A model generated the notes under the pieces. That model saw only the letters and a list, made by a program, of their open reading frames with translations. It had not been told where the DNA came from and did not search any database. The position numbers and the translations under genes were made by a program. 64,000 nucleotides of DNA from Bugula neritina (taxonomy: Eukaryota > Bryozoa > Gymnolaemata > Cheilostomatida > Bugulidae). Shown here piece after piece: positions 18,640-64,000 of this stretch (its first letter is position 1; the number at the start of each line of letters is the position of its first letter). Location: contig OZ037772.1 in the NCBI GenBank assembly GCA_964035545.1, positions 1,575,001 to 1,639,000 on the forward strand, read 5' to 3'.

Positions 18640-21600
18640 TCAAGCATGTGATTCGATAGCTAGTAGCTCCAGTGCAATTCTGTGATTGGTTTTAGGCAAG
18701 CTCTTAGTCATGACATCGGCAGAGTTCTCTGCTCCTCTGATGTGTTGGTACGCTATGGTGGTTTGCTCTCTGACAAAGTGGAATCTAATGTCGATGTGTT
18801 TGCTCCTCTGGTGTGAGTATGGTTGTCCCTTGGTGAGGGCAATGGCTCCAAGGTTGTCAGTGAAAAGTGTGTTAGGGTTAGGCTGTTTCATCTTGAATGT
18901 TTTGCACAAAGTCTGTAGGAATAGCATCTCCTTTGTAGCTTCGGCTAATGCCATGTATTTGGCCTCGCATGATGATAAGGCCACTGTGGGTTGTCGTCGG
19001 CTGTTCCAACTTATAGGGGCTCCACCCAGTGTGAATACATATCCTGTAGTTGATCTTCGTGTAGAGGTTTCTCCGCCCCAATCTGCATCCACATAGCCCA
19101 CTAGTTCTTGTTGATTGGGAGTGAATCTCAGATTGAATCCTTTTGTACCTTTAAGGTACCGTAGCAGCCGCTTCAAGGCAGCAATATGTGCAGGTCCAGG
19201 TCTTTCTAGGTGTTGGGAGAGCTTCCCAATGATCCATGCTAGGTCTGGACGTGTGGCGGTCATTAGGTATATGAGAGAACCTATAACTTGTCTGTAGGGG
19301 TAGTCCTTTGAACGCTCATATTCGTCGTCTGTTGCTTTTTCTAGTTGTAAGTCCTTTTCAGCAGGGGTATATACAGGGTTGCAATCTGCCATATTGTAGG
19401 TGTTCAGCAGCGTGTCTATGTAGCGCTCCTGTGACATAGTGTACTGGTCCTCATGTCTCCTGAAGTCTATCCCCAGGAACCAGCTTAATTCTCCTCTATC
19501 ATCCATGTTGAATTTTTGTTGCATCATAGATTTGGTTTGTGTGATTCTGTTGTCGTCTCGGCAGCAGAGAAGGATGTCATCAACCCAGAAAAGAATGATG
19601 ATGTTGGCTGATTTATCTGAAGGGTCCTCTTTTGAGTAAAGACAAGGGTCTCCAGCACCAGGTGTGAAGCCTTGCTCCTTGAGGAAAGTGGTCAGTGTTT
19701 GGTGCCAATTGCGCCCGCTTTGCTTGAGGCCATAAATGGATTTGTTGAGACGACAAGAAAGCTTCCCTTGTTTGTTGGTTTCTTCGTACCCTTCAGGCTG
19801 TTGTAGATAAATTTCCTTATCGATTGGTGCGTTTAGGTACGCTCCTTTAACATCTAGTTGATGTATTTTCATGTTTTCATTTGCTGCTTTCTGTAACAGC
19901 AATCTGATGGATGTGAATCTGGTGGTTGGACTGTAAGTTTCTTCATAGTCAACTCCTTGTATTTGTGAAAATTCTTTTGCTACATATCTAGCTTTATGTT
20001 GAGTTTCACCTGGCGTTTTTCCCTGTTTGAGGGTATAAACCCATCTGCCCTTGGTCTCTGTCCTGTCTTCAGGTAGCGGCTGGATAGACCAGGTGTTTGA
20101 ATCACGTAGGGTGTTTATTTCCTTGTCCATGGCTTTCTTCCAGGCTTCTTTATCTTTTGAATTTACAGCTTCTTGGTAGGACTGTGGTATGTTTGCCATC
20201 AGTGAGCAAGCATAGTCAGTGTCTTCTATGTCATAGTCCTGTAGGTATGTAGGAGGCTTTCGTTTCCGTTCTGATTTACGTGGTCCAGGTTGGTTGGTGG
20301 CCTTTGCCGGATCTGGTGCAGGTTCTTGTGGTATGGTATTCTGAGTACCATTTCTGGTGTTAAGTGCGGGTCCTTGTGGCATGACGTTCATTGCGTCATT
20401 TCCGCATATTTGTGGTATGACATTTCTGGATGTAACAATTTTCTGATTAGGGGTAAGTATAAGATAGCCTTGGGCCTATGTGTTGACACCAAGATATATG
20501 CCGCTTTGTCCGCGGTCACTGAGTTTTAACTTATTTCCCTCTGAGTAGAATGTGCATTGAGATCCAAAATTGTGAATTTTCCTCATGTCGGGTAGCGTGC
20601 CTGTGAATAACTCATAAGCTGTCTTTCCCGTCCGTCTCTGGTAGCTTCGGTTTCTTAGGTACTTGGCATGGTCAGCGGCAAAACTCCAGAAAGTCTTGGG
20701 GAGATTTGAATCTTTGAGTAGGCATCGTGCTGTGTCCATTATGGTGCGCCAAGTCCTCTCTGATTTACCATTCTGGTAGGATGAGTAGGGTGCTGTAGTG
20801 GTGTGTTTGATTCCCCTCTCACGTAGCACGGCTTCAAATGGCTGTCCAAGGTACTCCATGCCGTTGTCAGTATGGATCTCCTTCACATTTCCTATAGGTG
20901 CCACATCTGCAACGAATTGCTTTAGTGCAGTGGTGGCATCACTTTTGTGGCGTATATTGTAGGTGAACAACATACTGGAAAATTCATCTATGAAGTTTAT
21001 CATGTAGTTTTGTCCTCCACTAGCAGTTGGTGTGATGGGTCCGCATAAGTCAGAGTGTACACGTTGTAGAGGCTGTGTAGCTAGTTCAGGTTTATCGTCT
21101 TGTTTGTGAGGTTGTTTGGTGATTTTACTTTCGTCACATGTCTTGCATGCAATTTTTAATTTTGCTCCATTTATGGTCATACCTGTTGTCACTTTCTCCA
21201 GCTCAATTATGTCATTGGTGTTCATATGACCCAGTGCCCTGTGCCAATCGGGCAGCGGTTTTGCGGTGTTTATTGAGTCACTTGTATGGGTTGTCTTGAG
21301 GAAGTACAATCTGCCTTTGGGCATAATTGGAAAAGTTGTCCTGTCGACTGTCAGTATATTTTTCTCTCTAGAGAAATGTACTTTTGCCCCTTTTTGTGTG
21401 GCGGCGTGGACTGAAAATAGGCTTGTTGGTATTGTTGGTGCTAGCAAAGCGTCTTTTAGATGAATCTGCTGCTCCATATTGTTGTCATCAGTAATAGTAA
21501 ACTGTGCTGTGCCTTTGGCTACAGCCAGCTTGTTTGTTTTGCGACCATCTGCCATCTCTATGTAGTGGTTCTCAGGCGTGAAGCTCTTATCATAACTAAT

Positions 21601-22305
21601 GAAGTTGTTCTCATTGTTCACCAGATGACTTGTCGCTCCGCAGTCCACCATAAGCAACTGTCCCCCTTGAGATTTATCTTGTGTGGCTATGTTGCATTGG
21701 TTTGATGTATTCACAGTGAAGGCATATGTGGCATTTGCCGATGAAATTTCAGTTTTACTTGTCTTCTTCTTTGTCCTGCAAACTGATTCGATATGTCCAG
21801 CTTTCTTGCAGTAGTTACAAATTAGTTTGTGCTTTGAGTAACAATCTGTTGTAGAATGATTGCTTTTACCACAAGCAGTGCACTGTTTATCACGTTTGCT
21901 AGTGGGTTTGAAATTGTCTCTTCCTTTAAATACCATGGCTGTAGATTGAGAGCACCTTGCCGACTCAGTAAGGTCAAAGTTGGTTAGAGCTGCTTTGAAC
22001 TCTGATAGGGTTTGGTTTTTGTCAAGTTGCGTATGTACTACAACAAAAGGCTGGTAGGATGTTGGTAATCCTTTCATAATCATTGCGATCACCAAATTGT
22101 CACTAATATTTTCCCCAGCAGACTTGAGGCCTGCTGAGTAGTTCTCAGCACGAATCAGGTAATCTGTAATGTCTTCTGTATCATTCATTTTTACAGTTGT
22201 AAGTTGTTCATAAAGAGTTAATATTCTAGGCTTTTGTGTACTTGCATAGTGTTCTTTTAGAATTTTGAATGCTTTTCTTCCATCGTCTTTGGCATCTCTC
22301 ATCAC
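18640..22305 (-). CDS. copia Gag-Pol, interrupted by one in-frame TAG
   Basis: One reading frame runs from 22305 to 18640, with a single TAG at 20476-20478 where the family normally has a sense codon in the segment YLGVNT-stop-AQGYLILTP. Upstream part (609 aa): the Gag end, zinc knuckle CNYCKKAGHIESVC preceded by CTACGKSNHSTTDC, protease MVDCGATSHLV (Cys in the usual Ser/Thr position), integrase zinc motif HRALGH...CKTC, and catalytic segments HSDLCGPI, HTDNGMEYLG and YQNGKSERTWRT. Downstream part (583 aa): reverse transcriptase (GRWVYTLK, QLDVKGAYLNAPI, FWVDDILLC) and RNase H (GYVDADWGG, SSCEAKYMAL, KHIDIRFHFV). The Gag N-terminus is missing: only about 155 bp separate the start from the LTR, and the frame has a stop just upstream. 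Confidence 0.92.
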
Positions 22306-22446
22306 AAGTTATCTTCTCCTTCTTCTTTGGGTAGAAGTGCGGTGTGTACTCCTTCATCTTGTGTGTACAAGTATGAAGTGAATCTTGTTTCCCAAATTGA
22401 GAAATTGTTTGAATCAACATCAAAGAGAAGCCTGTGTTTGAAGCCA

Positions 22447-22787: not shown

Positions 22788-23139
22788 TGTAGTAATTTGT
22801 GCAATTACTGAGCGTGAGTTATTTACTTGCGTATAGTTAGCTGGTTATTCTGTTATCAATTACTAGGGTAGCTGTCGAGTAATTATATTTATTATCCACA
22901 ATAAAGCATAAACCAAACATCACATCAAATTATCCTATACAAGAGTCAACTACTAACACATGTTACTACTACAAGCCTCCGCTTACAACAACGTGATATA
23001 ATGTTAATAACCCGGGAAGTGTCACGTGACTCGGAAGCATATCTTCCGGAGCTGCTAATTGGTTGCTACATAAGAGTCTAAGTATTCCAAGAGTAGGGAG
23101 AGGGCGATTCCTGTATTTGTACTTGCACTACTCACTACA
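22788..23139 (-). repeat. 3' LTR of the 22.8-kb gypsy-type element
   Basis: 352 bp, identical to 27325-27676. Contains CCACAATAAAGC and a TCACGTGACT motif. Confidence 0.93.
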
Positions 23140-23190
23140 CCGTCCCCCCCAGCAGAAAGCCCTACTTTCTGATAACACAATAAAAAAAAC
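23140..23190 (-). other. polypurine tract and adjacent conserved hairpin
   Basis: Next to the LTR the plus strand reads CCGTCCCCCCCAGCAGAAAG, then CCCTA, then CTTTCTGATA. CAGAAAG and CTTTCTG are a perfect 7-bp stem with a 5-base loop. The second gypsy-type element has the same arrangement (62984-63020), though its LTR sequence is unrelated. Confidence 0.75.
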
Positions 23191-23431
23191 ATAATGAAAA
23201 ACCATACAATAATCCAAAAAGGAAAATATACATAAGTAAACCCACAAAGAGTAAGAAAAGAAATAGTCAAACACGACAACGTTTACATTAGAAGACAACA
23301 GGGTGATCGATCACACACATCTAGTCAGCTATTAAGAGAGAGGGTGCTTACCAGCACGCGGGCCAATGTCGGAGCGCTCGTCACATCCTAAACGAGCTAT
23401 AGCTCAACGAAGGTGCCTACCCCAGGCATTC

Positions 23432-24485
23432 TCATTGGTTGGACTCTGCTTCTTGTAGCGACCGTGCTCTGTGTCGAGCCTGTCGGGCCCGTAGCCGCCT
23501 CTTCAGTCGCCCTACTGAGTCCTTCAACTGGTATAGACCTGTCGTCGTATCCAGCAAGTCAGGGGCAAGTTGTGTGAATTCGGCTTGTAGTCTTAGAAGC
23601 CGCTCTTCTACGTTAGCCAGCTGGCTAGGCCTTGGTGGGGTTATAGGGGTCTCCGTTATACGGGATATGGTTGTTTCTTCTACTTCTGGGGTGTTGCTAG
23701 GGTTGACGGGGGTAGGAGGTGGGCCCTGAACCATAGGGGACTTATGGCGGGCAGATAGTAACAGTACGTGAAACCCTGACGTTAGTGCGGCCAGGGTAAT
23801 AGCCTTCCTGATGACTGGCTTGATGGCATCCAGGTATAGGGGGAAACTGTCTTCATCAACAGTGTGGTTCTCTCCGGCGAAGCAGCTTAGCTTATGTACT
23901 GTCACGGGATACGGGTAGACGTCGTGGAACCCGCAGGGACAGAAGTGGAGTAGGAAATGGGCATCTACATGTAAACGCAAGGAGCGGTGCGACGGGCACT
24001 CCTCAAAGCAGACCTGGCAGGTTCGGTGTGGTCCACTGGGTCCCCAGGCTTCTTCAATTCTCCTCTCTGTCGTGGGTGACACCCAACGGTGTCGTCGGCG
24101 GAGTACTACTGGTATGCCATTCTCCATTACAGGCTCTTCTTCCATAGACAGAGAGGTTGGCTGGTCCCGTGACCGGGAGGTGGTCACTCGAGTGTGATCT
24201 GAAAGAGTAGCAGTGTTAAAGATTATACACTGAGGCACCGTCGGCGTGTACAGCCTGACCGGTACTCTGTTCAGTTACACTCGTGAGATTCAGGCTAATG
24301 AATAGTTGATGGAGAACACACTCGCTATGACAGATTATTTAAAATCAAAGTCGACGTGTATTCCCACCACTGTTTATCATTATCGAATCTCCAGCTTAGC
24401 TAGTGTAGCTAAGCTGACTGATGCAGTCTAGTTATCGTACCAAAAACATAATTAACTCACCCTTCGATCCAGAATAGTAAGACAT
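23432..24485 (-). CDS. accessory zinc-finger protein of the gypsy-type element (two exons)
   Basis: Exon 1 is 24485-24461 (ATG, MSYYSGSK plus one base; donor AAGG|GTGAGT). Exon 2 is 24198-23432 (acceptor CTCTTTCAG). Both are phase 1, giving 263 aa. Motifs: C69-x2-C72-x12-H85-x3-H89, a classical C2H2 finger, then C95-x-C97-x12-H110-x3-C114. A hydrophobic helical middle follows (VIRKAITLAALTSGF), then a Pro/Thr-rich linker and a heptad-like C-terminus (VEERLLRLQAEF, LKRRLRARQARH). The start lies 24 bases past the stop of the pol remnant. The second element in this window encodes a close relative at the same place. I know of no standard retroelement protein like this. A nucleic-acid-binding or regulatory role is inference. 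Unspliced, the exon 2 frame still has an ATG at 24145. Confidence 0.75.
24199..24460 (-). other. intron of the accessory gene with a perfect hairpin
   Basis: 262-bp intron with GTGAGT donor and pyrimidine-rich CTGCTACTCTTTCAG acceptor, joining two exons in the same phase. Inside it, 24392-24416 is a perfect inverted repeat: CAGCTTAGCTA, loop GTG, TAGCTAAGCTG. Confidence 0.7.
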
Positions 24486-24508
24486 TTTGGAATGAAAGTG
24501 GTAACTGA

Positions 24509-25939
24509 CTACTGTTTACTGGCACGTCTACTCTCGACTGCATCAACATAGGAAAAGACCGGACAGCGTGGTTGTGAAACGTGACTAGGGCTTTTCACTT
24601 CCAGCGGATGAATCTCGTGTGAGATTCCGCCGAGGCAAAAGTTGAGATTCTCGTGGTGATCACAACTCCCACGGCTCTTTGCCTGTTTTGCCATGCGAGG
24701 CCTCTCTAGACTTTTGTTACTGCCGCTTATACCGCGGTCACGTACACAGTCTCTGAGACACGCTGGAAGTTGCCTAGTGTGTGGTCCTGGTCCTATGTTG
24801 GTATCTCCTTGCGGAGCCCCTCCCACGGGGGGTTTTTGCACTTCCGGACCTGTTTCTGGTTCCGGAAGTGGTGATGATGGCAGGCTTGACGTTGGGGGCG
24901 GTGGGCGCACTTTCAAGGACGGAAGTGGCCTTTCTCGCCTCGCCAAGTCTTCCTGACGTGTCATGGAGGTGTTTCCGGCCAGGTTGACAGTCTCCGCCTG
25001 CCGAGACCTTCTCGCACAATGCGTCTGCCGCCCCGCTTCACCAGGGAGACGGCTATGCTTGTTGGTCTGGCAGACTTTGCACCGTCTCACTCTGCGTCGG
25101 ATATCCCGTTCCATGTTAGGCCAGTACCACCGGAGTTGTAGCTTGGTGACCACCCCTTGGACTCCTCCGTGAGTCTCCTCGTGGGTGTCTTGTATCAACT
25201 TCCGGCGGATGGCAACTGGGCAGACAACCCTCTTCCTGGCTGGCTGTCCGTTGTTGGCGGCCAAGGTCATGGTTAGCAGACCATCTGGCCCGACCCGCAG
25301 AGAGCTCCAACGTTGACAGTACAGCCGTAACTCGGCGCATCCCTGTCGCCGTTGTGTACTACTGGGTCGTCGCCCCTCCTGTTTCGCTCGGTACACGTCG
25401 GCTACCACCCCAGGAAGGCATTCCTGGAGCTTCGGCAGCTCCCTAACGTTACCAGCCCATACAGGTTTGGCGCGGAGGCTCTGGGCAGCCTCCGGGGGCG
25501 TGTCAGCCCTCTGTTGAAGTGGCTGAGCAGGGGCGGTCCTCGCCGCCCGTGGTACCTCACGGCAGCCTGCTCTATTTAGGCGGGCTCCGTGGTCTGTGTG
25601 GCTGAACGCCTCACTGTACCCATGTGGCAACCTAGCCATAGCCTGGCGCTTCCCGTTGCCTGTGCAGCCACGCGTCCCTGGAGGAGGGGAGGCGTGGGTT
25701 GGGACGGTCCTCCGCCCTCGAGACGGGCTCTGCTGAGGACCTTCCGTCGTAGCTCCCGACGACGGCCCAATGGCTTCCTCCTGGACAGGATGGAAGCGAC
25801 CCAGCATGGATCTGGGTGGTAGGTCTACTGTCTCTGAGAAGGGGTTGACACACTGCACTGAGATCTCTCCTTGCCCCGTGAGCCGGCTAAAACTACGGGC
25901 AAGTTGGACTCTCGAGTGCGTACTTTCGACAACTCCCAA
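24509..25939 (-). pseudogene. pol remnant of the gypsy-type element
   Basis: An open frame of 476 codons that extends a little further upstream without a stop. It keeps the piece between protease and reverse transcriptase (LGVVES, VQLARSF, SVQCVNPFSETVDLPPRSML), a trace of the reverse transcriptase start (GYSEAFSHTDHG), then jumps to the integrase zinc domain (HEETHGGVQGVV, LRWYWPNMERDI, RRCKVCQ). It ends in a Pro-rich segment. The protease D-S/T-G, the reverse transcriptase DD and the integrase DDE core are not present. No frameshift or stop interrupts it, so the deletions left a long open frame, presumably without enzymatic activity. Confidence 0.75.
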
Positions 25940-26338
25940 CTTAGAGGTTTGGCCACCGTCTACCTTGCAGCGGACGGTAGCCCGGGAGTGGCCTGGTATA
26001 GTACAGCTCCGTACTACCTGGCAGGAAGTAGCTACTTCCGTGCGGCTGCAATTGAGTGTGCCGTGGTTGCACCTCCCTCGCTGTGGGTCGAGGGGTCCAC
26101 GGTTGGCGGCGACTATTGACCAGCTGCCGAGGTTGAGGCGGTACGCCTTGCGGCGCTTGTATCGTTTCCCTCGCAGGCTCTGTGGTCAACCGTCTGCCGG
26201 CTCCGTGTTGGTGCCGGAGTGGCGTAGAGGACCCAGGCGGCAAGTGGTTTGAGCCTACTTGCCGCGGGGGTCGCCACTTCACAGCATCTCCGCGCGGCGC
26301 CCAGCGGGGCGACAGACGCGCGGGCCTCCCTGGGTGAT

Positions 26339-27289
26339 TCACAGACGGCCCGCAGGAGGTGGGAACATCTGCGGGCCGGGGTAGTTTAACCCTGGTGGGA
26401 GTTGAGGGCAGTTTCTCTGGAAATGTCCTGGCCTTCCGCATTCCCAGCAGAAGTGGTGCCCCATGCCTGGTGATTGTACCTGCGGCCCGTAAGGCTCACG
26501 GGCAGTATCTACCTGGCTTGGGGAGGCTAATGTGGTGACCAGTTTATCTAGCATGTCAGTCATCTGTGAGATTTTTGACGCTAGTGACATCTGGTTCACA
26601 CTAGCCACCGCGGAGGGTTCCGCATTTAATTCAGTGTGAGCAGTAGAGTGCTCCGTGGTCACCTGGCGGGAGGCCACGCGGTTGCGGTGCATATGAGTCG
26701 CCAAGAGATAGGCTTCTCCCACCGCAAGTGCATCTTCGACTGTGGTGACTCCCCTCGCTTGGAGTTGATGGTGGAGCCCCAAATCGTTGATGGACTGCAC
26801 GAAGGCATCATAGGTATACCTCTCACGGTGTACCGGAGGCAGATCGCGGAATGCAATCTGCGCTAATGGGTACACCGTGGCAGCGTGCTCTTCTAGTGAC
26901 GTGTGAGGATCACGCCGCATCCTCTGTAGACGGGCCCGCGCATCTATGGGAGAGATGCCAAAACGGGCCCGCAGGGAAGCAAAGATTCCGTCTATGTCAG
27001 GTCCAGCTCCGTACGGCTTAGCTTTGCCCGTCAGCGCCATCCTGAGCTTTAGCAACGCCACCCTTGGCGGCCATTCTGCAATCTCCATTACATCCTGGAA
27101 TTCTTGGATGAACTGCTCCACTGCTTCTTCGCCAGTGAAGTTGGGCGCCTTCAGCCGATATCTATCTTCACCATGCTCTCTAAGAATTCTCACTTCTTCA
27201 TCTAACACCACTGGTTCCACAGGTATATCAACATTATCTCTCTCACCTTCATTCAGTGGAATGGGTAGCTCCGTGCCGTCTTCTGCCAT
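26339..27289 (-). CDS. Gag of the 22.8-kb gypsy-type element
   Basis: 316 aa from the ATG at 27289, about 35 bp inside the 5' LTR. The capsid-like region includes FTGEEAVEQFIQEFQDVM and PRVALLKLRMALTGKA, typical of Ty3/gypsy Gag. It is followed by a zinc knuckle CWECGRPGHFQRNC (CX2CX4HX4C) near the C-terminus. Intact, with no stop. It would package RNA of the element, and is the only replication protein this copy still encodes in full apart from the accessory protein. Confidence 0.88.
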   Translation of the reverse strand: MAEDGTELPIPLNEGERDNVDIPVEPVVLDEEVRILREHGEDRYRLKAPNFTGEEAVEQFIQEFQDVMEIAEWPPRVALLKLRMALTGKAKPYGAGPDIDGIFASLRARFGISPIDARARLQRMRRDPHTSLEEHAATVYPLAQIAFRDLPPVHRERYTYDAFVQSINDLGLHHQLQARGVTTVEDALAVGEAYLLATHMHRNRVASRQVTTEHSTAHTELNAEPSAVASVNQMSLASKISQMTDMLDKLVTTLASPSQVDTAREPYGPQVQSPGMGHHFCWECGRPGHFQRNCPQLPPGLNYPGPQMFPPPAGRL

Positions 27290-27324
27290 GACTGCTATAC
27301 GCAAGATCCCACCGCTGCCACCAC

Positions 27325-27676
27325 TGTAGTAATTTGTGCAATTACTGAGCGTGAGTTATTTACTTGCGTATAGTTAGCTGGTTATTCTGTTATCAATTAC
27401 TAGGGTAGCTGTCGAGTAATTATATTTATTATCCACAATAAAGCATAAACCAAACATCACATCAAATTATCCTATACAAGAGTCAACTACTAACACATGT
27501 TACTACTACAAGCCTCCGCTTACAACAACGTGATATAATGTTAATAACCCGGGAAGTGTCACGTGACTCGGAAGCATATCTTCCGGAGCTGCTAATTGGT
27601 TGCTACATAAGAGTCTAAGTATTCCAAGAGTAGGGAGAGGGCGATTCCTGTATTTGTACTTGCACTACTCACTACA
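27325..27676 (-). repeat. 5' LTR of the 22.8-kb gypsy-type element
   Basis: 352 bp, identical to 22788-23139. The inside edge is followed on the minus strand by GTGGTGGCAGCGGTGGGATC, a candidate tRNA primer site beginning TGG. Confidence 0.93.
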
Positions 27677-46063: not shown

Positions 46064-46257
46064 GAGAATTCCATGCTAGTGACCTGCCACACGCAGTGCG
46101 TGTGTTGCGAGTGCAAAATATTATTAGCAAATGATGTTAGCGTTAAACTTTACTGCTCACCTACAGACGTTTGTTTTTAAACAGCGTCACCGGGCAAAGT
46201 AATTTGGATATTATAAAAGCAGAAATGCAAAATATATAAAACTGTTTTAATTCAGCT

Positions 46258-46790
46258 CAGTATATTATGTTATACAGTATACTATGTTATACAGTATACT
46301 ATGTTATACAGTATACTATGTTATACAGTATATTATGTTATACAGTATACTATGTTATACAGTATACTATGTTATACAGTATACTATGTTATACAGTATA
46401 CTATGTTATACAGTATATTATGTTATACAGTATACTATGTTATACAGTATACTATGTTATACAGTATATTATGTTATACAGTATACTATGTTATATAGTA
46501 TACTATGTTATACAGTATACTATGTTATACAGTATACTATGTTATACAGTATATTATGTTATACAGTATACTATGTTATACAGTATACTATGTTATACAG
46601 TATATTATGTTATACAGTATACTATGTTATACAGTATATTATGTTATACAGTATACTATGTTATACAGTATACTATGTTATACAGTATACTATGTTATAC
46701 AGTATACTATGTTATACAGTATACTATGTTATACAGTATATTATGTTATACAGTATACTATGTTAAACAGTATATTATGTTATATTAATC
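46258..46790 (+). repeat. 17-bp minisatellite TATACTATGTTATACAG, about 31 copies
   Basis: Very homogeneous array with few variants (TATATTATG). The unit is partly palindromic (GTATAC, GTTATAC). Because 17 is not a multiple of three and the unit has no stop in any forward frame, all three forward frames are open across most of the array. These frames are not genes. Confidence 0.95.
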
Positions 46791-46881
46791 AACATACAAA
46801 TAAGATGCTCTTGTCAGTCTATTATTATACACTGGAACTGGGTTACTCTCTCACCTCCCCTCACTGCGGCTCAGCTAGACC

Positions 46882-47105
46882 AGTGCTTCCCAAGTGATGA
46901 ATTTGGGCTTTTTTAGGGAAGATTTTTATTTCTAAAAATTTCACAGTTTGTTACCAGCCCTATTGAGCTCTTGCCTTATTTTCAAGATTACATGTACTGT
47001 ATATGTATAACTATAACTCATTCATTTTATGTAGTTCATATATTTATCCACACTACACACTACAATCTAAGTTTACTTCTACATCCATGTGTCTATTATT
47101 CACTC
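46882..47105 (-). mobile_element. partial hAT-like MITE (CAGTGGTTCCC family)
   Basis: CAGTGCTTCCCAAG starts it, followed by GGGCTTTTTTAGGG and, further in, CTACATCC-type sequence that matches the complement of the interior of the element at 58781-59385. Its other end was not found. Confidence 0.5.
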
Positions 47106-47778: not shown

Positions 47779-47966
47779 TGTTATGTTTAAAGAATTGTAT
47801 ACTAGAGTTATGTCCCCTATTGTAGTTCGTATTTTGAAATTATCATCGTTTGTGTATGACGTCATTATGATGAGTCGCCATTACTACTCTATCGAAATAT
47901 TAATAGCATGTTTAACTGAATTTATTAAATATCAATAAAAGTTATAAAACTAGATTGAACACAACA
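47779..47966 (+). repeat. gypsy 5' LTR
   Basis: 188 bp, TG...CA; contains CAATAAAAGTTATAAAAC near its end. Confidence 0.95.
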
Positions 47967-47998
47967 TCTGGCGACGAGGATTGGTTGTGATACTGAAT

Positions 47999-50900
47999 AT
48001 GGCTTCAAATATTGGTTCAGTTGGCGAGTTTGATGTCAGTAAACCCAAAGATTGGTCTACATGGAAACTGAGATTCAAGGCATGGCTGGCTGTCAACAAG
48101 ATTGATAATGACGATAAAATTAATGCTCTGTTGGCTGTAGCAGGTGGTGACATGGTAGACCTTCTGGTGAGTTTATGTCATCCTGCAGATGTTACTACTA
48201 AAGACTTTGATGTATTAATGAAATTGATCGACGATCATTATGGAGCAGGCAGGAATGAAATTGCTGAAAGCTACATGTTTGACTGCAGATCGCAAAATGA
48301 CACTGAGTCGGTAGCAGATTATGTGGTAGCTCTAAGAAAGCTATCTGTGTATTGTAATTTTGGAAGCCAGTGGGAACAAAGAATGCGTAATAGACTTGTG
48401 TCTGGTGTTAAGAATGATAAAATAAGAACTAGATTGTTATCTGAGGGCGCTAAATTAACATGGGAGAGAGCAGTAGAAATTGCAATCACAGCTGATGTAC
48501 AAAATAATTACACTGACACGAGTAGAGCAGCAAAAGTTGGCAATGGTGGTATGAGCGTACAGAGGATTGGCAATGACCGTAACAGGGGCAGTGTCATGAC
48601 AAGGTCAAGGCCAAATTTCAAGTGTTTTAGGTGTTTGGGCACCAATCATCAGTCACATCAATGTAAGTTCAAGGACTCGAATTGCCATCATTGCAATATG
48701 AAGGGGCATATTAAAAGAGCTTGTAGGCAACTACAAAAAGTGCAGGGAGTAGAAGAAGATCGCCAACAGCTGATGCCAACACCACAAAGCCAAAGCAGGG
48801 CGCCTAGTGCTAGCGGATATCCTTCCACACTTGATCAATATTACGCTAACCAGAACAGGAGAGACTCTGAGCAGCTTAACTCTCAATGCTTTTCATCAAA
48901 TCCAAATAATGACTGCCTGTCAGTACGATGTGTTTCAGGACCGCACAATCAACAGATTACGGTGAATGTTGACATTGAGGGCGTGACAATGGCCATGGAA
49001 GTTGATACTGGTTCCTGCATTACGTTAATTACTAGTGCAGACTATGATAGATATTTTTCCAGAATACCTTTAAAACCTTGTGGTCTTACATTTAGGAGCG
49101 CGTCTGGTGACAGCGTCGCGATTTTGGGAAAATTTGAGGTACGCGCACAATATGGCGACCAGGTACATAGACTATGTTTGCGAGTAGCGCGTGGTCACTC
49201 TAGGTTGTTAGGTAGAGATTGGTTAAGTGTGATTCGTTTAAAGTGGGCTGAAATCGGAGCCCAACTACATGGTAACAAAATGGTTAATGGTATTAATTTT
49301 GACAGGATTCAGGCCATTAAGCAATTAAAGCAAAAGCACACTGAAGTGTTCAAGAAAGAGCTAGGTACCCTGAAAGGTATACAGGCAAGGCTCAGGCTGA
49401 AAGAAAGGACCATCCCTAAGACCACTAAGCCATATAGAGTCCCATTAGCTATGAGGACCAAGGTTGAAAGTGAGTATGAGAGACTAGAATCACTAGGTAT
49501 CCTTGAAAAGGTAAGTGCATCTGAGTGGTCAACAGGTGTAGTGGCAGTACCCAAACCTGATGGCTCAGTAAGGATATGTGGTAACTACAAAACCACGGTA
49601 AACCCAGCATTAATGCCTGTAGCACCTCCTCAAATAAATGTTGACGGCATTCTGGCAAACCTGAATGTAGATGGTAAGTCGAAATATTTTACCACACTAG
49701 ATCTGGCGCAGGCCTACAACCAGATGATTGTCAGTAAGGAATCCAGACCACTTTTGGCTCTAGCTACGCACAAGGGTTTGTATGCCTACACCAGATTAGC
49801 TTTTGGGATCAGTGTGGCACCAGCCTTGTGGCAAAATGCTATGGAACAAGTTCTGATGGGTATTGAGAGGGTACAGGTATACTATGATGACATCTTAATA
49901 GCTGGAAGAACAGAGGAGGAGCATGTCAAACTTCTAGATCAGGTAATGACTAGATTGGAGGAGTATGGCCTGCGACTAAATGAGCAGAAATGTATGTTCT
50001 TTAGAGAGTCAGTAGAGTACCTAGGTATGGTCATTGATCAGAATGGAATCGCACCGATCCCCAGTAAGATAGAGAAAGTTGTGAGCACTCCAAAGCCTAA
50101 AGATGTAACACAATTGAGATCTTATGTGAGTATGCTTAGCTACTACCGTAGATATCTAAAAAATCTGGCACAAGAAATAGCCCCACTGACCAACATGCTT
50201 GCAGGTAAGAAAACACAGCTAGATTGGAGTAAAGAGGCTGAGGAGGCTTTCGCAAGATCTAAAAGCATGCTAAAGAGCTCCGGACTTCTCATTCACTTTG
50301 ACCCTAAGCTGAAAACCAGGGTAACCTGTGATGCCTCAAGAGATGGCATAGCAGCAATATTGTCCCACATTGGAGAGGACGGGCAAGATCGACTAGTGCA
50401 ATTTTCTTCAAGAGCTCTAACACCGACGGAGAGACTCTACCGACAACTAGAGAGAGAAGCTCTAGCAATTGTTTATGGGTTAGAAAAGTTCTACTACTAT
50501 ATCTATGGGAGACGCTTTACCCTAGTGACTGATAACCAGCCACTAACATGGATTTTCCATCCGAACAAGAGTCTACCTATAATGACAGCGGAGAAGATCC
50601 AAAGATGGGCCCTATATGTAAGTCAGTTTGACTATGAAATTGAGTTCAAGCGAGGCCAAGACAACAATGCTGATTACTTCTCAAGGATGCCGGTGGACCC
50701 AGCGCCCGTGGATAATGTAAACATTTCAGAGGTAGGGTATGTGTTTAGCGTGACTGAAGAGGTGTTGCCAGTCACAGCAGAGGTCATTGCAAAGTATACT
50801 TTGAGTGACCCTACATTGCTTGGTGTAATGAAATATTCTAGAGTTGGATGGCCGAAGCACTTGAAAGGAGATGAGGAATTCCTTAGACCATACTATGCTA

Positions 50901-52153
50901 GAAGAGATGAGATTGGAGTTGAAAGAGTTTGCATCCTGATGGGGTTGCGCCTAGTTATACCTGAGCAACTACGCAAGCAAATTTTGGTGGAGATTCACAC
51001 AGGTCATCAAGGGATAGTCAAGTCTAAGGCTATCGCAAGAAGCTACGTATGGTGGCCGGGACTGGATAAGGACATCGAGGAAGTTTGTAAAACATGTGAA
51101 GCATGTCAGAAAGACAAACCCAACCCCCCAATAGCAGGAACGCACCCTTGGATCCCTGCTCAAAAACCTTGGGAGAGGATTCATGTAGATTACGCGGGAC
51201 CAGTAGAAGGACACATGTTTTTGATTGTGGTAGACGCATATGCCAAATGGCCAGAAATTCTTATGACATCTACATCGACAACATCGGTGACATGCCACGC
51301 GTTGAGGGGGCTGTTTGCGAGACATGGCTTGCCAAATGTTTTGGTACCAGACAATGGACCATGTTTCACATCAGCAGACTTTAAGGAGTTCACTCAAAGT
51401 TATGGGATAATCCATAAGTTCTCCCCGCCCTATCACCCCGTCACCAATGGCCAGGCAGAGCGCTTTGTACGCTCATTTAAGGAAGGTATGAAGAAAGGAA
51501 GGGGCGCAATACAAGTAAAACTCGACAAATGGCTACTGGCATATTGAACTGCTCCTCATAGTGTGACAGGCATTTCACCAGCTAGCAGATTCCTGGGACG
51601 GACACTGAAAACAAGGCTGGATTTGCTGTTTCCTAGTCAAAACGCTGAAAGGTCTAGATTTACTGAGTTGAAAACTAGGCAGTTTGAGGTAGGTGATTTA
51701 GTGTGGGCAAGGGATTATATGTCCTCTGACTTCTGGAGAAAAGGTAAGGTAGTTGAGGTAACGGGACCGCTAACATACGTAGTACAAGTTCAAGGGAAAG
51801 GTGAGTGGAGAAGGCATATTGACCAAATGCGTCTAAGAGTGGAGAGTCGTGACTCAGTGTTAAATGGTCAAGGCACAGGTATGCGTAGGTGGCCAACACA
51901 AAATGTAACACCATATACCAAAATCTACCCAAATCAGGAAAGTAATAATGACCCTGATGAACTCGCGAGTGACCACGCAGGCTCGGCTAGACATCAGCCA
52001 TTTGCAGAGGGGGGCGATAACACTTTGGGTAATGGAAACGACCCGGTTGTGCCTCAGGCGTCGTCGGCATCGAGCGCAGCACTGTCACCAGACGCGATTC
52101 CAGTCCGCCGGTCCTCACGGATCAAGAAAGCACCTGTTAGATTGAATTTGTAA
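47999..52153 (+). CDS. gypsy Gag-Pol polyprotein, one in-frame TGA
   Basis: Starts at the ATG at 47999 (MASNIGSVGEF), preceded only by non-ATG codons. A single frame runs to TAA at 52151. Order: Gag (to about residue 205), zinc knuckles CFRCLGTNHQSHQC and CHHCNMKGHIKRAC, protease MEVDTGSCITLI, reverse transcriptase (LDLAQAYNQM, VYYDDILIAG), RNase H (TCDASRDGIAAIL, LVTDNQPLTW), integrase zinc domain (HTGHQGIVKSKA, CKTCEACQ) and catalytic core (HVDYAGP, VPDNGPCFTS, NGQAERFVRSFKEG). It ends with a chromatin-facing C-terminus carrying VGDLVWARDY and SSRIKKAPVRLNL. TGA at 51545-51547 falls inside the integrase (LAY-stop-TAPHSVTG) where the family has Arg, consistent with a CGA to TGA change. Gag and Pol share a frame with no shift site. 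Confidence 0.95.
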
Positions 52154-61858: not shown

Positions 61859-62690
61859 CTAGGAATATAAAATTGGATTTCTCACAACATAATCTTTGAA
61901 TCTATCACGTATTTTGATAGCTGTATTTGTACCACGGACTTGCGGCTCACTAAGCCTACCAAAACTTGTCTGCTCTAAGGAAATCTGTGGCTCTAATGCT
62001 GCTCCAGTTGGAGGCTGTCTGTTTTGTCTTATGATGTTGTGCAAAATACAACAGGCGAGAGTTAGCACTTTCACCTTGTGTGGTTCTAGATCTATAGGCC
62101 TGAAAAATATCCTCCAAGTATTTGCAAGAATTCCAAATGCATTTTCTATAAGCCTTCTTGCTCTAGAAAGTCTTGCATTATGTACCTGCAAATAAAAAAT
62201 AAAAAATAAGCAATATTTTTAAATGACAAAATATTAAAGATATTCTATGTTGATCACCTCTTCATCAGGAGGCAGCACCCTGGAGTGTGGTTTGGAGAAA
62301 GGCCTCATCAAAAATGGTCTCAGAGGAAATGCTTCATCGCCAACTATGACAAAGGGTAAGAGCTCTGTGCCTTGCTCTGGAACTTCTGGCAGTGGAAAAT
62401 AAATGGTTCCATTTTCAATGTGTTGCAATAGCTTTGAAGACCGAAAAACTCCCCCATCAGAATGGCGCCCTTCTGCTCCACATTCCACATATGTGAACCT
62501 GTAACAACAAGAAGTTTAAATTACATTCCCTCTTAAACTAGAGAAAAGCTATTAATATGTATTCAAGTGTACATACTTGTAGTTATGATCGCACATAGCA
62601 AGCAGGATAATTGACTCAAATCCTTTGTAATTGTGGTATTGAGATCCAGCGTGGTATGGCTTGTTCATAGTGATATTGTTATAATTTTCA
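61859..62690 (-). CDS. PIF/Harbinger transposase (HARBI1-like), N-terminus missing
   Basis: Exons 62690-62577 (KPYHAGSQYHNYKGFESI, LLAMCDHNYK), 62498-62258 (FTYVECGAEGRHSDGG, FVIVGDEAFPL, MRPFSKP) and 62185-61859 (ARRLIENAFGILANTWRIF, TLACCILHN) join in phase. The catalytic triad is likely Asp in MCDHNY, Asp in VGDEAF and Glu in IENAFG. It ends at TAG (61859). The DGKH-type segment and the N-terminal helix-turn-helix lie beyond the junction with the LTR at about 62700 and are not in the window. The visible part has no disruption. Confidence 0.87.
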
Positions 62691-62983
62691 GATTTAGGGT
62701 TGATATGCTATCCAGAGAGTCTATTTATCTAGTATAGAACTGCACCAGGCTAAGTCGAGTGAACGAGTATATTTTATTCACAACTATACATCATAAAAAC
62801 ACGATACATTATTTCTAACAAGTTACACATCTAATCTATTTCACACTCTAGCTTCGACTGACTTAGCAGCGGGAAACTACAATTGCTGCTAACTATCAAC
62901 TACGCTAATTGGCTATCCATTGTTCCGGGTCAATTACGCGACCCTACATGTTGTGCTGCTGGTAGTTCCACGAACCACCACAC

Positions 62984-63263: not shown

Positions 63264-64000
63264 CTAGAGTCCTTGTTGGGCACGCCGGTGCTTGGCTTGG
63301 CATGTACGCAGTTTCCGTTTCATACGGCATACGGATCCCTTCAGCTGGAAGAGTCCTGTGGTAGTGTTGAGTAGATCTGGCGCCAGCTGGGTGAACTCTT
63401 CTTGTAATCGTAGGAGGCGTTCTTCTACTGTGGCTAGTCGTACTGGGTCTGGGGACGGTGTCCGTCTGCGGCGTAATGGTGGACTGGGGGATCTGGTCCG
63501 TCTCTTCGCCGGGGTAGGGGAGATCTCTCCTTCTTCTGGATATGTAGTTTCCTCGGGGGTGTAGGTAATTGGAGGGCGGTCAGACACCAACGGGGATTGT
63601 TGGCGGGCGTTGTCTAACACACTTTGGAACCCCGAGGATAGAACGGCTAGTAGCATGGCCTTCTTTACCAGAGGTCGTATATATGTGAGGAACTCCGGGT
63701 ACAGCTTAGCGTCGACCACATAGTTTTCTCCAGGGAAACAGCCCGCCGCTCTGTGTCTGGTGACGGGGTAGGGATACACATCATTGTACCCGCAGGGGCA
63801 GAAGGTCAGTAGGAGATGAGCATTGACGTGTAGTTTAAGGGAGCGGTGAGAGGCGCAATCTTCACCACAGATCTGGCATCTCGTCCGTCCTCTGGACCCC
63901 CAGGCTGTTTCTATTTCTTCTTCGGTTTGTGGAGACACCCACCGCCAACGGCGGCGTAGTGGCTCAGGCCGGTCACCACTAGCATAGTCCTCCGGATACG
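63264..64000 (-). CDS. accessory zinc-finger protein, second gypsy-type element (5' end outside window)
   Basis: Open to the window edge on the minus strand, 245 codons or more. It aligns along its length with the protein at 23432-24485: RRRWRWVSPQTEEEIETAWG, finger one CQICGEDCASHRSLKLHVNAH truncated here as CQIC...LHVNAH (C-x2-C-x12-H-x3-H), finger two CPCGYNDVYPYPV...HRAAGC (C-x-C-x12-H-x4-C), the middle IRPLVKKAMLLAVLSSGF, a longer Arg/Ser/Pro-rich linker (TRSPSPPLRRRRTPSPDP) and the C-terminus VEERLLRLQEEFTQLAPDLL. Similarity is around 50% by eye, highest in the fingers and the coiled coil. The open frame and pattern conservation argue that the protein is used by the elements. Confidence 0.8.
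   Translation of the reverse strand, partial: YPEDYASGDRPEPLRRRWRWVSPQTEEEIETAWGSRGRTRCQICGEDCASHRSLKLHVNAHLLLTFCPCGYNDVYPYPVTRHRAAGCFPGENYVVDAKLYPEFLTYIRPLVKKAMLLAVLSSGFQSVLDNARQQSPLVSDRPPITYTPEETTYPEEGEISPTPAKRRTRSPSPPLRRRRTPSPDPVRLATVEERLLRLQEEFTQLAPDLLNTTTGLFQLKGSVCRMKRKLRTCQAKHRRAQQGL

Follow-up and report, generated by a model that had tools for sequence, protein, structure and literature searches.

What does a retrotransposon keep between pol and its 3' long terminal repeat (LTR) when it no longer encodes a reverse transcriptase (RT) of its own? The question is raised by a Ty3/gypsy-type element of the bryozoan Bugula neritina that lies in a window of 64,000 nucleotides (nt), the whole stretch analysed here (assembly GCA_964035545.1, contig OZ037772.1, positions 1,575,001 to 1,639,000). 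The third open reading frame of this element, ORF3, follows the pol remnant and precedes the 3' LTR, in the env position. It is best read as a regulatory gene of a Ty3/gypsy clade, made from spliced RNA, and control of unspliced RNA is favoured as its putative function. In the following, W1 denotes the ORF3 of the window element, W2 a second ORF3 at the right end of the window, and L followed by a number the genomic loci that were read.

Splicing of ORF3 RNA

A first-pass annotation of the window had proposed a gene with its own ATG at 24485, a GTGAGT...CTTTCAG intron with matching phases and 263 codons. These coordinates hold, and the two-exon frame closes to 263 codons plus a stop. The parts of the gene are:

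24461..24485, minus strand: ORF3 exon 1 (25 nt), with its own ATG and a phase-1 donor, starting 23 nt past the stop of the pol remnant
24199..24460, minus strand: ORF3 intron (262 nt), GTGAGT...CTTTCAG, and conserved structured RNA element
23432..24198, minus strand: ORF3 exon 2 (767 nt), encoding the fingers, the middle part, the C-terminal helix and the stop
27247..27289, minus strand: alternative 5' exon, gag nt 1-43, donor AATGAAG/GTGAGA, phase 1, its junction known from the relatives L075 and P0010

The splicing that the annotation had proposed is recorded in processed genomic copies. At the loci L030 and L033, whose outer flanks differ, AAGG is joined straight to ATCACACTCG, and exactly the predicted intron is gone. 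A genome-wide pattern search with up to three mismatches detects four intron-less places, these two included, and none in a reversed control. The intron has also been lost at L078, which belongs to another subfamily; exon 1 of that subfamily has 22 nt, so that the phase is kept, and intron phase is likewise kept in other subfamilies. The simplest reading of these processed copies is that the RNA was spliced, then reverse-transcribed and inserted.

A second junction involves the start of gag. L075 carries the first 43 nt of gag joined in frame to the acceptor of ORF3 exon 2, and the fusion reads MTERGTELPIRRNE/DHTRL... over 261 residues, while the gag donor AATGAAG/GTGAG is still unspliced in its relative L071. 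The same gag-ORF3 fusion is present in the public protein P0010 (MAEEGTELPIPRNE/DHTRL), the only one of 214 homologue proteins with any of three gag-leader words in its first 100 residues. A pattern search for further gag fusions returned one perfect match (L075) and five matches at two mismatches; since the reversed control gave 20, these five count as chance. The gag-start splice is thus observed in relatives and not in the window copy itself. RNA of this family is spliced in two ways into the same 767-nt exon, always in phase 1, either from the short post-pol exon or from the gag start; in the latter case the subgenomic mRNA encodes a gag leader of 14 residues.

A conserved branched RNA in the intron

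Nine pairwise profiles, each of nine segments, show the highest conservation in the intron if the 25-nt exon 1 is set aside. In the four closer pairs it shows 94-98% identity, against 79-95% elsewhere, with pol segments coming near; in the five L069-type pairs the values are 75-76% against 58-74%. Between W1 and L057, the intron has 4 differences in 262 positions at a fourfold-site distance of 0.29, whereas its distance is 0.25 between W1 and L069 and 0.45 between W1 and W2, compared with about 2 and 1.8, respectively, at ORF3 fourfold sites. Intron distance is about 3.5 to 19 times below the ORF3 fourfold-site distance, the distant values being near saturation, and for W1-L057 the intron evolves 6.7 times more slowly than the synonymous sites of the pol remnant.

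Evidence for a structure comes from alignment A3, which comprises 14 introns chosen from the loci read and L079. Its consensus is branched, with 73 pairs, and 97.3% of 1019 cells are paired, versus 31-43% in slid controls. Both sides have changed in 14 of the 73 pairs (41 cells), a level reached in none of 500 shuffles; the 14 rows represent about four independent lineages, so that the events are fewer than the cells. A structure derived from seven W1-type rows alone was also applied to held-out introns. Six L069-type introns each form 73-75 of the 80 pairs, five of which have changed on both sides, and keep 12-14 of the 18-20 pairs with a changed base. W2 forms 65 of 81, ten of them changed on both sides. 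The data support the intron as a conserved branched RNA confined to unspliced RNA; no Rfam family matched the element in the window. Both this structured intron and the use of a second 5' exon, from gag, go beyond the first-pass annotation.

Several observations limit this interpretation. If synonymous change in the pol remnant is taken as the yardstick, the intron lags behind it by a factor of only about 2.6 for W1-L069 (0.25 versus 0.66). Recombination may account for part of the low intron divergence, since lineages have exchanged segments of ORF3. Of the five covariation measures, that of further pair types does no better than shuffles (372 of 500), and among the 35 W2 pairs with a changed base, 19 are kept and 16 broken. 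Single-sequence folding of introns is stable (z -4.7, -2.8 and -3.7), but values of z -3 to -6.7 are also seen in many gag-pol windows of these elements, and folding energy is therefore no evidence for a special element in the intron.

The window element and relatives with a complete pol

The window element extends from 22788 to 27676 on the minus strand (4.9 kb). Besides ORF3, its features are:

22788..23139, minus strand: 3' LTR, TG...CA, 352/352 identical to the 5' LTR
27325..27676, minus strand: 5' LTR, matching the 3' LTR at 352/352
26339..27289, minus strand: gag, 316 amino acids (aa), one CCHC knuckle
24509..26185, minus strand: pol remnant frame with the integrase H2C2 zinc-binding domain (Pfam PF17921)

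The paired 352-bp LTRs with TG...CA ends are identical at all 352 bases and the outer flanks each carry CACG (sense strand), which indicates a recent insertion. The element is non-autonomous; in its pol remnant Pfam detects neither RT nor RNase H nor an integrase core.

A relative with a complete pol is cut by the end of the window:

63264..64000, minus strand: ORF3 exon 2 of this relative (W2)

The relative that the first-pass annotation had noted at this place is real, and its exon 1 and intron lie just outside the window (L079:52-340), behind the complete pol. Here, L079 contains a 1144-aa pol frame with RT, RNase H and the zinc-binding and core domains of integrase upstream of the second ORF3, in the order RT - RNase H - integrase that is also that of Ty3/gypsy. 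Exon 1 of this ORF3, ATGTCTTACGACAACAGATCGTGGG/GTGAGT, starts 24 nt past the stop codon of pol, and the intron that follows terminates in CTTTTTCAG. With its complete pol the second element may be autonomous, and the presence of such members in the group makes the window element a deletion derivative.

Copy number, selection and recombination

The gene is not restricted to the two copies of the window; hundreds exist. A DNA search of the 216-Mb genome scored 40 matches of 177 candidates, the window copy included, and coverage of the 1054-bp gene is 97-100% in every one of the 40. At the protein level, searches with three different starting points yielded 149, 151 and 150 matches. When the lists of 149 and 150 matches are merged (19 rows shared), ORF3 relatives are encoded at at least 280 distinct genomic places, a lower bound because each search scored only about 150 of 919 to 940 candidates. 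The main type falls into three subfamilies with about 54-64% protein identity. The 77 loci read correspond to 70 distinct places (seven doubled), the window copy among them. The frame of exon 2 stays open at least to codon 240 in 71 of the 77 (64 of the 70 distinct places), and exon 1 with a GTGAG donor was recognised in 71 of the 77 as well. The six loci without a recognised exon 1 are the three that have lost the intron (L030, L033 and L078), L075 with its gag junction, and L064 and L068, in which the pattern was unmatched; L060 has lost the acceptor AG.

The ratio of nonsynonymous to synonymous substitutions (dN/dS), determined by Nei-Gojobori counts, is far below 1 in ORF3; a value near 1 would have spoken against the first-pass annotation. 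Loci with early stops (L067, L068 and any with a stop before codon 230) were left out for ORF3. Between the window copy and seven subfamily representatives dN/dS is 0.110-0.174, and across all 66 pairs of 12 representatives it is 0.09-0.46 where dS is defined; the high values (0.30-0.46) belong to close pairs among L053, L057, L062 and L063, and some of the pairs with low values have a dS near saturation. In five lineages (L051, L053, L057, L062 and L063), dN/dS is 0.110-0.143 for ORF3, 0.149-0.306 for gag (in L062 over 96 codons with one stop) and 0.284-0.53 for the pol remnant. For the pol remnant, 13 W1-type lineages range from 0.232 (L058, 150 codons) to 0.75 (L055), and six other rows from 0.41 to 0.47. 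In these elements, which are devoid of RT, ORF3 is the most constrained of the three genes compared, narrowly so in L062. Despite its weaker constraint, the pol remnant retains an uninterrupted frame of 785-787 aa at some 30 or more of the 150 places listed.

This constraint bears on a different possibility: the intron could promote export or silence splicing constitutively, through host proteins alone, and ORF3 would have another task. The intron structure is conserved by itself, and constitutive elements are described for simple retroviruses. It would then take a separate cause to explain why elements devoid of RT and integrase core keep ORF3 so strictly, and this explanation is considered unlikely.

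dS varies between segments of the elements. L019 and L048 carry W1-type ORF3 genes, with four and 34 differences from that of the window, paired with a pol remnant of another subfamily (70-72% identity) at a dS of 0.7. Both findings indicate that recombination has exchanged segments between lineages, and ORF3 seems to travel as a module.

The ORF3 protein

The domains of the protein map to the window as follows:

23957..24019, minus strand: finger 1, C-x2-C-x12-H-x3-H (motif and weak structural match to C2H2 fingers)
23882..23941, minus strand: finger 2, C-x-C-x12-H-x3-C (motif and conserved columns)
23441..23623, minus strand: C-terminal long helix, possible coiled coil (AlphaFold2, middling confidence), with a basic stretch at about 23462-23503

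The two fingers of the first-pass annotation, one C2H2 and one C-x-C-x12-H-x3-C, were both located, at residues 69-89 and 95-114. Loosened forms of the two motifs occur together in 0 of 20000 residue shuffles, and the eight zinc-ligand positions are common to three diverged lineages. Of 48 main-type proteins with 220 aa or more, 35 have both fingers intact; the remaining ones are without at least one. Finger 1 matches C2H2 fingers weakly in structure, and the Pfam threshold for C2H2 (PF00096 and kin) was not passed, the W2 protein scoring 13.4 bits against 25.2. The annotation also proposed a C-terminal coiled coil. AlphaFold2 predicts a long helix for residues 193-253 of the exon 2 product with middling confidence, and a coiled coil is possible only. 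A basic cluster is located close to the C-terminus (KRRLRARQ; RKRR in L083).

No Pfam family was found for the window protein in a search up to E 1, and none reached its cut-off in the ORF3 proteins scanned. The PDB contains no sequence match, and a fold search gave no significant match of any kind, viral proteins included. Public databases hold 134 homologues, 169 by profile search, and 87 for the deep lineage described below; among the 120 matches listed for each of the first two sets, and among those listed for the deep lineage, none has a name or Pfam domain. The sources shown are mostly jgi, with some ena and lgn, which are taken to be metagenome assemblies.

The location after pol would also fit a degenerate envelope gene or a host gene captured once. 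Hydropathy reveals neither a signal peptide nor a membrane segment in the window, W2 and L083 proteins, in which the top 19-residue value is 1.43 and the N-terminus is not hydrophobic. Together with the hundreds of copies and the nameless, domain-free homologues among the matches listed, this makes such an origin very improbable, in line with the first-pass annotation, and no match to env or to a single host capture was found. An action at chromatin, in integration targeting or anti-silencing via nucleic acid or host factors, would agree with the zinc fingers and the basic C-terminal helix, and with the retention of ORF3 by elements that would need mobilisation in trans. The lack of any Pfam family at its cut-off in the proteins scanned speaks against it, and it is regarded as improbable.

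A deep lineage of ORF3

The claim of a distinct spliced accessory gene of gypsy-type elements stands, but not its restriction to one lineage: there are several deep lineages, one of which encodes an ORF3 with 30% protein identity (E 2e-17; hhalign probability 98.8) in at least 131 further places. The associated pol is related, with 66% identity over 173 residues around the integrase zinc domain. Both finger types are present, the last spacing being longer (H-x5-C), and are intact in 30 of 40 proteins of at least 250 aa, the remaining ones being without at least one; the C-terminal segment is similar to that of the main type.

Splicing in this lineage is a prediction. A 25-nt exon with the phase-1 donor GTAAG follows pol in L080, L082-L085, L091, L092 and L093. 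Two results weaken this prediction and also count against a role of the region in RNA control: the sequence that precedes the predicted acceptor reads through as an open, conserved coding extension, and processed copies of the predicted junctions were absent from both pattern searches made for them (0 matches).

In L080, L083 and L091-L093, ORF3 has an acidic, leucine-rich N-terminal extension with strongly constrained silent sites. For L083-L091, dS is 0.40 in the extension versus a near-saturated 3.1 in the core. The constraint on silent sites suggests overlapping RNA and protein signals.

Foamy-virus Tas is the model for another explanation, in which ORF3 activates transcription from the LTR, its fingers binding LTR DNA and its helix dimerising, while the intron structure only tunes splicing. 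Two fingers of this type could bind DNA as well as RNA, a point that weakens the case for an RNA-directed factor. The window and W2 types lack the N-terminal extension, however, and an LTR activator leaves unexplained why, of the segments longer than 25 nt that were compared, none is as conserved as the intron. It is therefore rated as having a low probability.

A possible function in the control of unspliced RNA

For the function of ORF3, the first-pass annotation had suggested binding of nucleic acid or control of host silencing, which may hold as well. The preferred interpretation, held tentatively, is that ORF3 and its intron form a pair of nuclear regulator and unspliced-only RNA element that may export unspliced RNA in the manner of Rev and the Rev response element (RRE) or of the Cer1 protein CERV. 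The ORF3 protein would enter the nucleus, as suggested by its basic C-terminus and the absence of a membrane segment, and could multimerise via the predicted C-terminal helix. It would bind the structured intron, which only unspliced RNA retains, and might thereby shield unspliced genomic RNA against retention or splicing and aid its export for gag-pol translation and packaging. Spliced RNA would thus provide the factor and the factor more unspliced RNA, following the logic of Rev/RRE and CERV. Such a loop would be the simplest functional link between a conserved zinc-finger protein and its conserved structured intron. A more far-reaching proposal, viewed with greater reserve, is that a switch of the Rev/RRE kind arose independently in Ty3/gypsy, with zinc fingers in place of the arginine-rich helix and a response element inside the intron that must be spliced out to give the mRNA of the protein, and was kept even by non-autonomous elements that have lost RT and the integrase core.

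Because elements with and without RT coexist, cis or trans action of ORF3 is testable, and the structure of the intron is by itself accessible to chemical probing.

Other elements in the window

A Ty1/copia-type element is located at 18640-22308 (minus strand); its two open frames, of 610 and 611 aa, adjoin each other and contain a copia-type gag, an integrase core and RVT_2. A separate gypsy-type element at 47954-52153 (plus strand) encodes, in a frame of 1197 aa, RT, RNase H and integrase domains that exceed the Pfam cut-offs; its gag and protease match weakly, and an extra 201-aa frame has no Pfam match. A long simple repeat at 46240-46897 (plus strand) keeps several frames open through its period, an artefact of repetition. 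Stretches at 62000-62700 (minus strand), judged by eye, resemble a DNA-transposon transposase.

Comparison with known systems

Third ORFs and spliced env messages of gypsy elements are already known. Errantiviral and retroviral Env proteins are encoded by a third ORF after pol and translated from a spliced subgenomic mRNA with a donor near gag. ORF3 shares this position and the spliced mRNA, but differs from Env in the absence of a signal peptide, a membrane segment and a viral fold match.

Rev is not known to contain zinc fingers, and its response element is located within env, whereas the element described here resides in the intron before the ORF3 exon. Like Rev, ORF3 is a small protein from spliced RNA with a basic stretch and a multimerising helix, the latter predicted in ORF3, and RRE and the ORF3 intron are both branched RNA elements present only in unspliced RNA. 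The constitutive or RNA transport elements of simple retroviruses are likewise structured RNAs that act on unspliced RNA, but without a viral protein, unlike the proposed ORF3 system. In the literature covered, which excludes most subscription journals, no zinc-finger ORF3 was found that combines a covarying intron RNA with two alternative 5' exons.

A case with a tested role is CERV of the Caenorhabditis elegans Ty3/gypsy element Cer1, which is described, along with an outline of Rev/RRE, in PMC10309623. CERV is an env-position ORF required for the export of genomic RNA; its mRNA is spliced and shares the start of gag, and the protein has a Cys loop, the residues of which are essential for this export, and a zipper. 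The same source notes that LTR retrotransposons, particularly those of plants, commonly carry ORFs of unknown function in the env position (PMC10309623). As far as that account extends, both CERV and ORF3 are encoded between pol and the 3' LTR without being Env, both derive from a spliced mRNA with the gag start (for ORF3 seen in processed copies of relatives), both combine a Cys-rich candidate for zinc binding with a zipper or long helix and a basic cluster, and both are without clear homologues beyond their own group. CERV comprises 517 aa, five exons, a C4-type loop and a GTPase-like domain, whereas ORF3 has 263 aa, two exons and C2H2 and CCHC-type fingers; the C4-type Cys loop is not present among the ORF3 ligands (C2H2 and C-x-C-x12-H-x3-C). 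A structured intron is found in ORF3 and is not mentioned for CERV in the part of PMC10309623 considered. The likeness, compared by description and not by sequence, would therefore be one of working and not of membership. ORF3 represents a second env-position case beside CERV, with a different zinc pattern, and its copies are numerous enough for splicing, selection and RNA structure to be read from the genome sequence by itself. Should ORF3 act on its intron, element-encoded control of unspliced RNA would have evolved more than once outside the lentiviruses.
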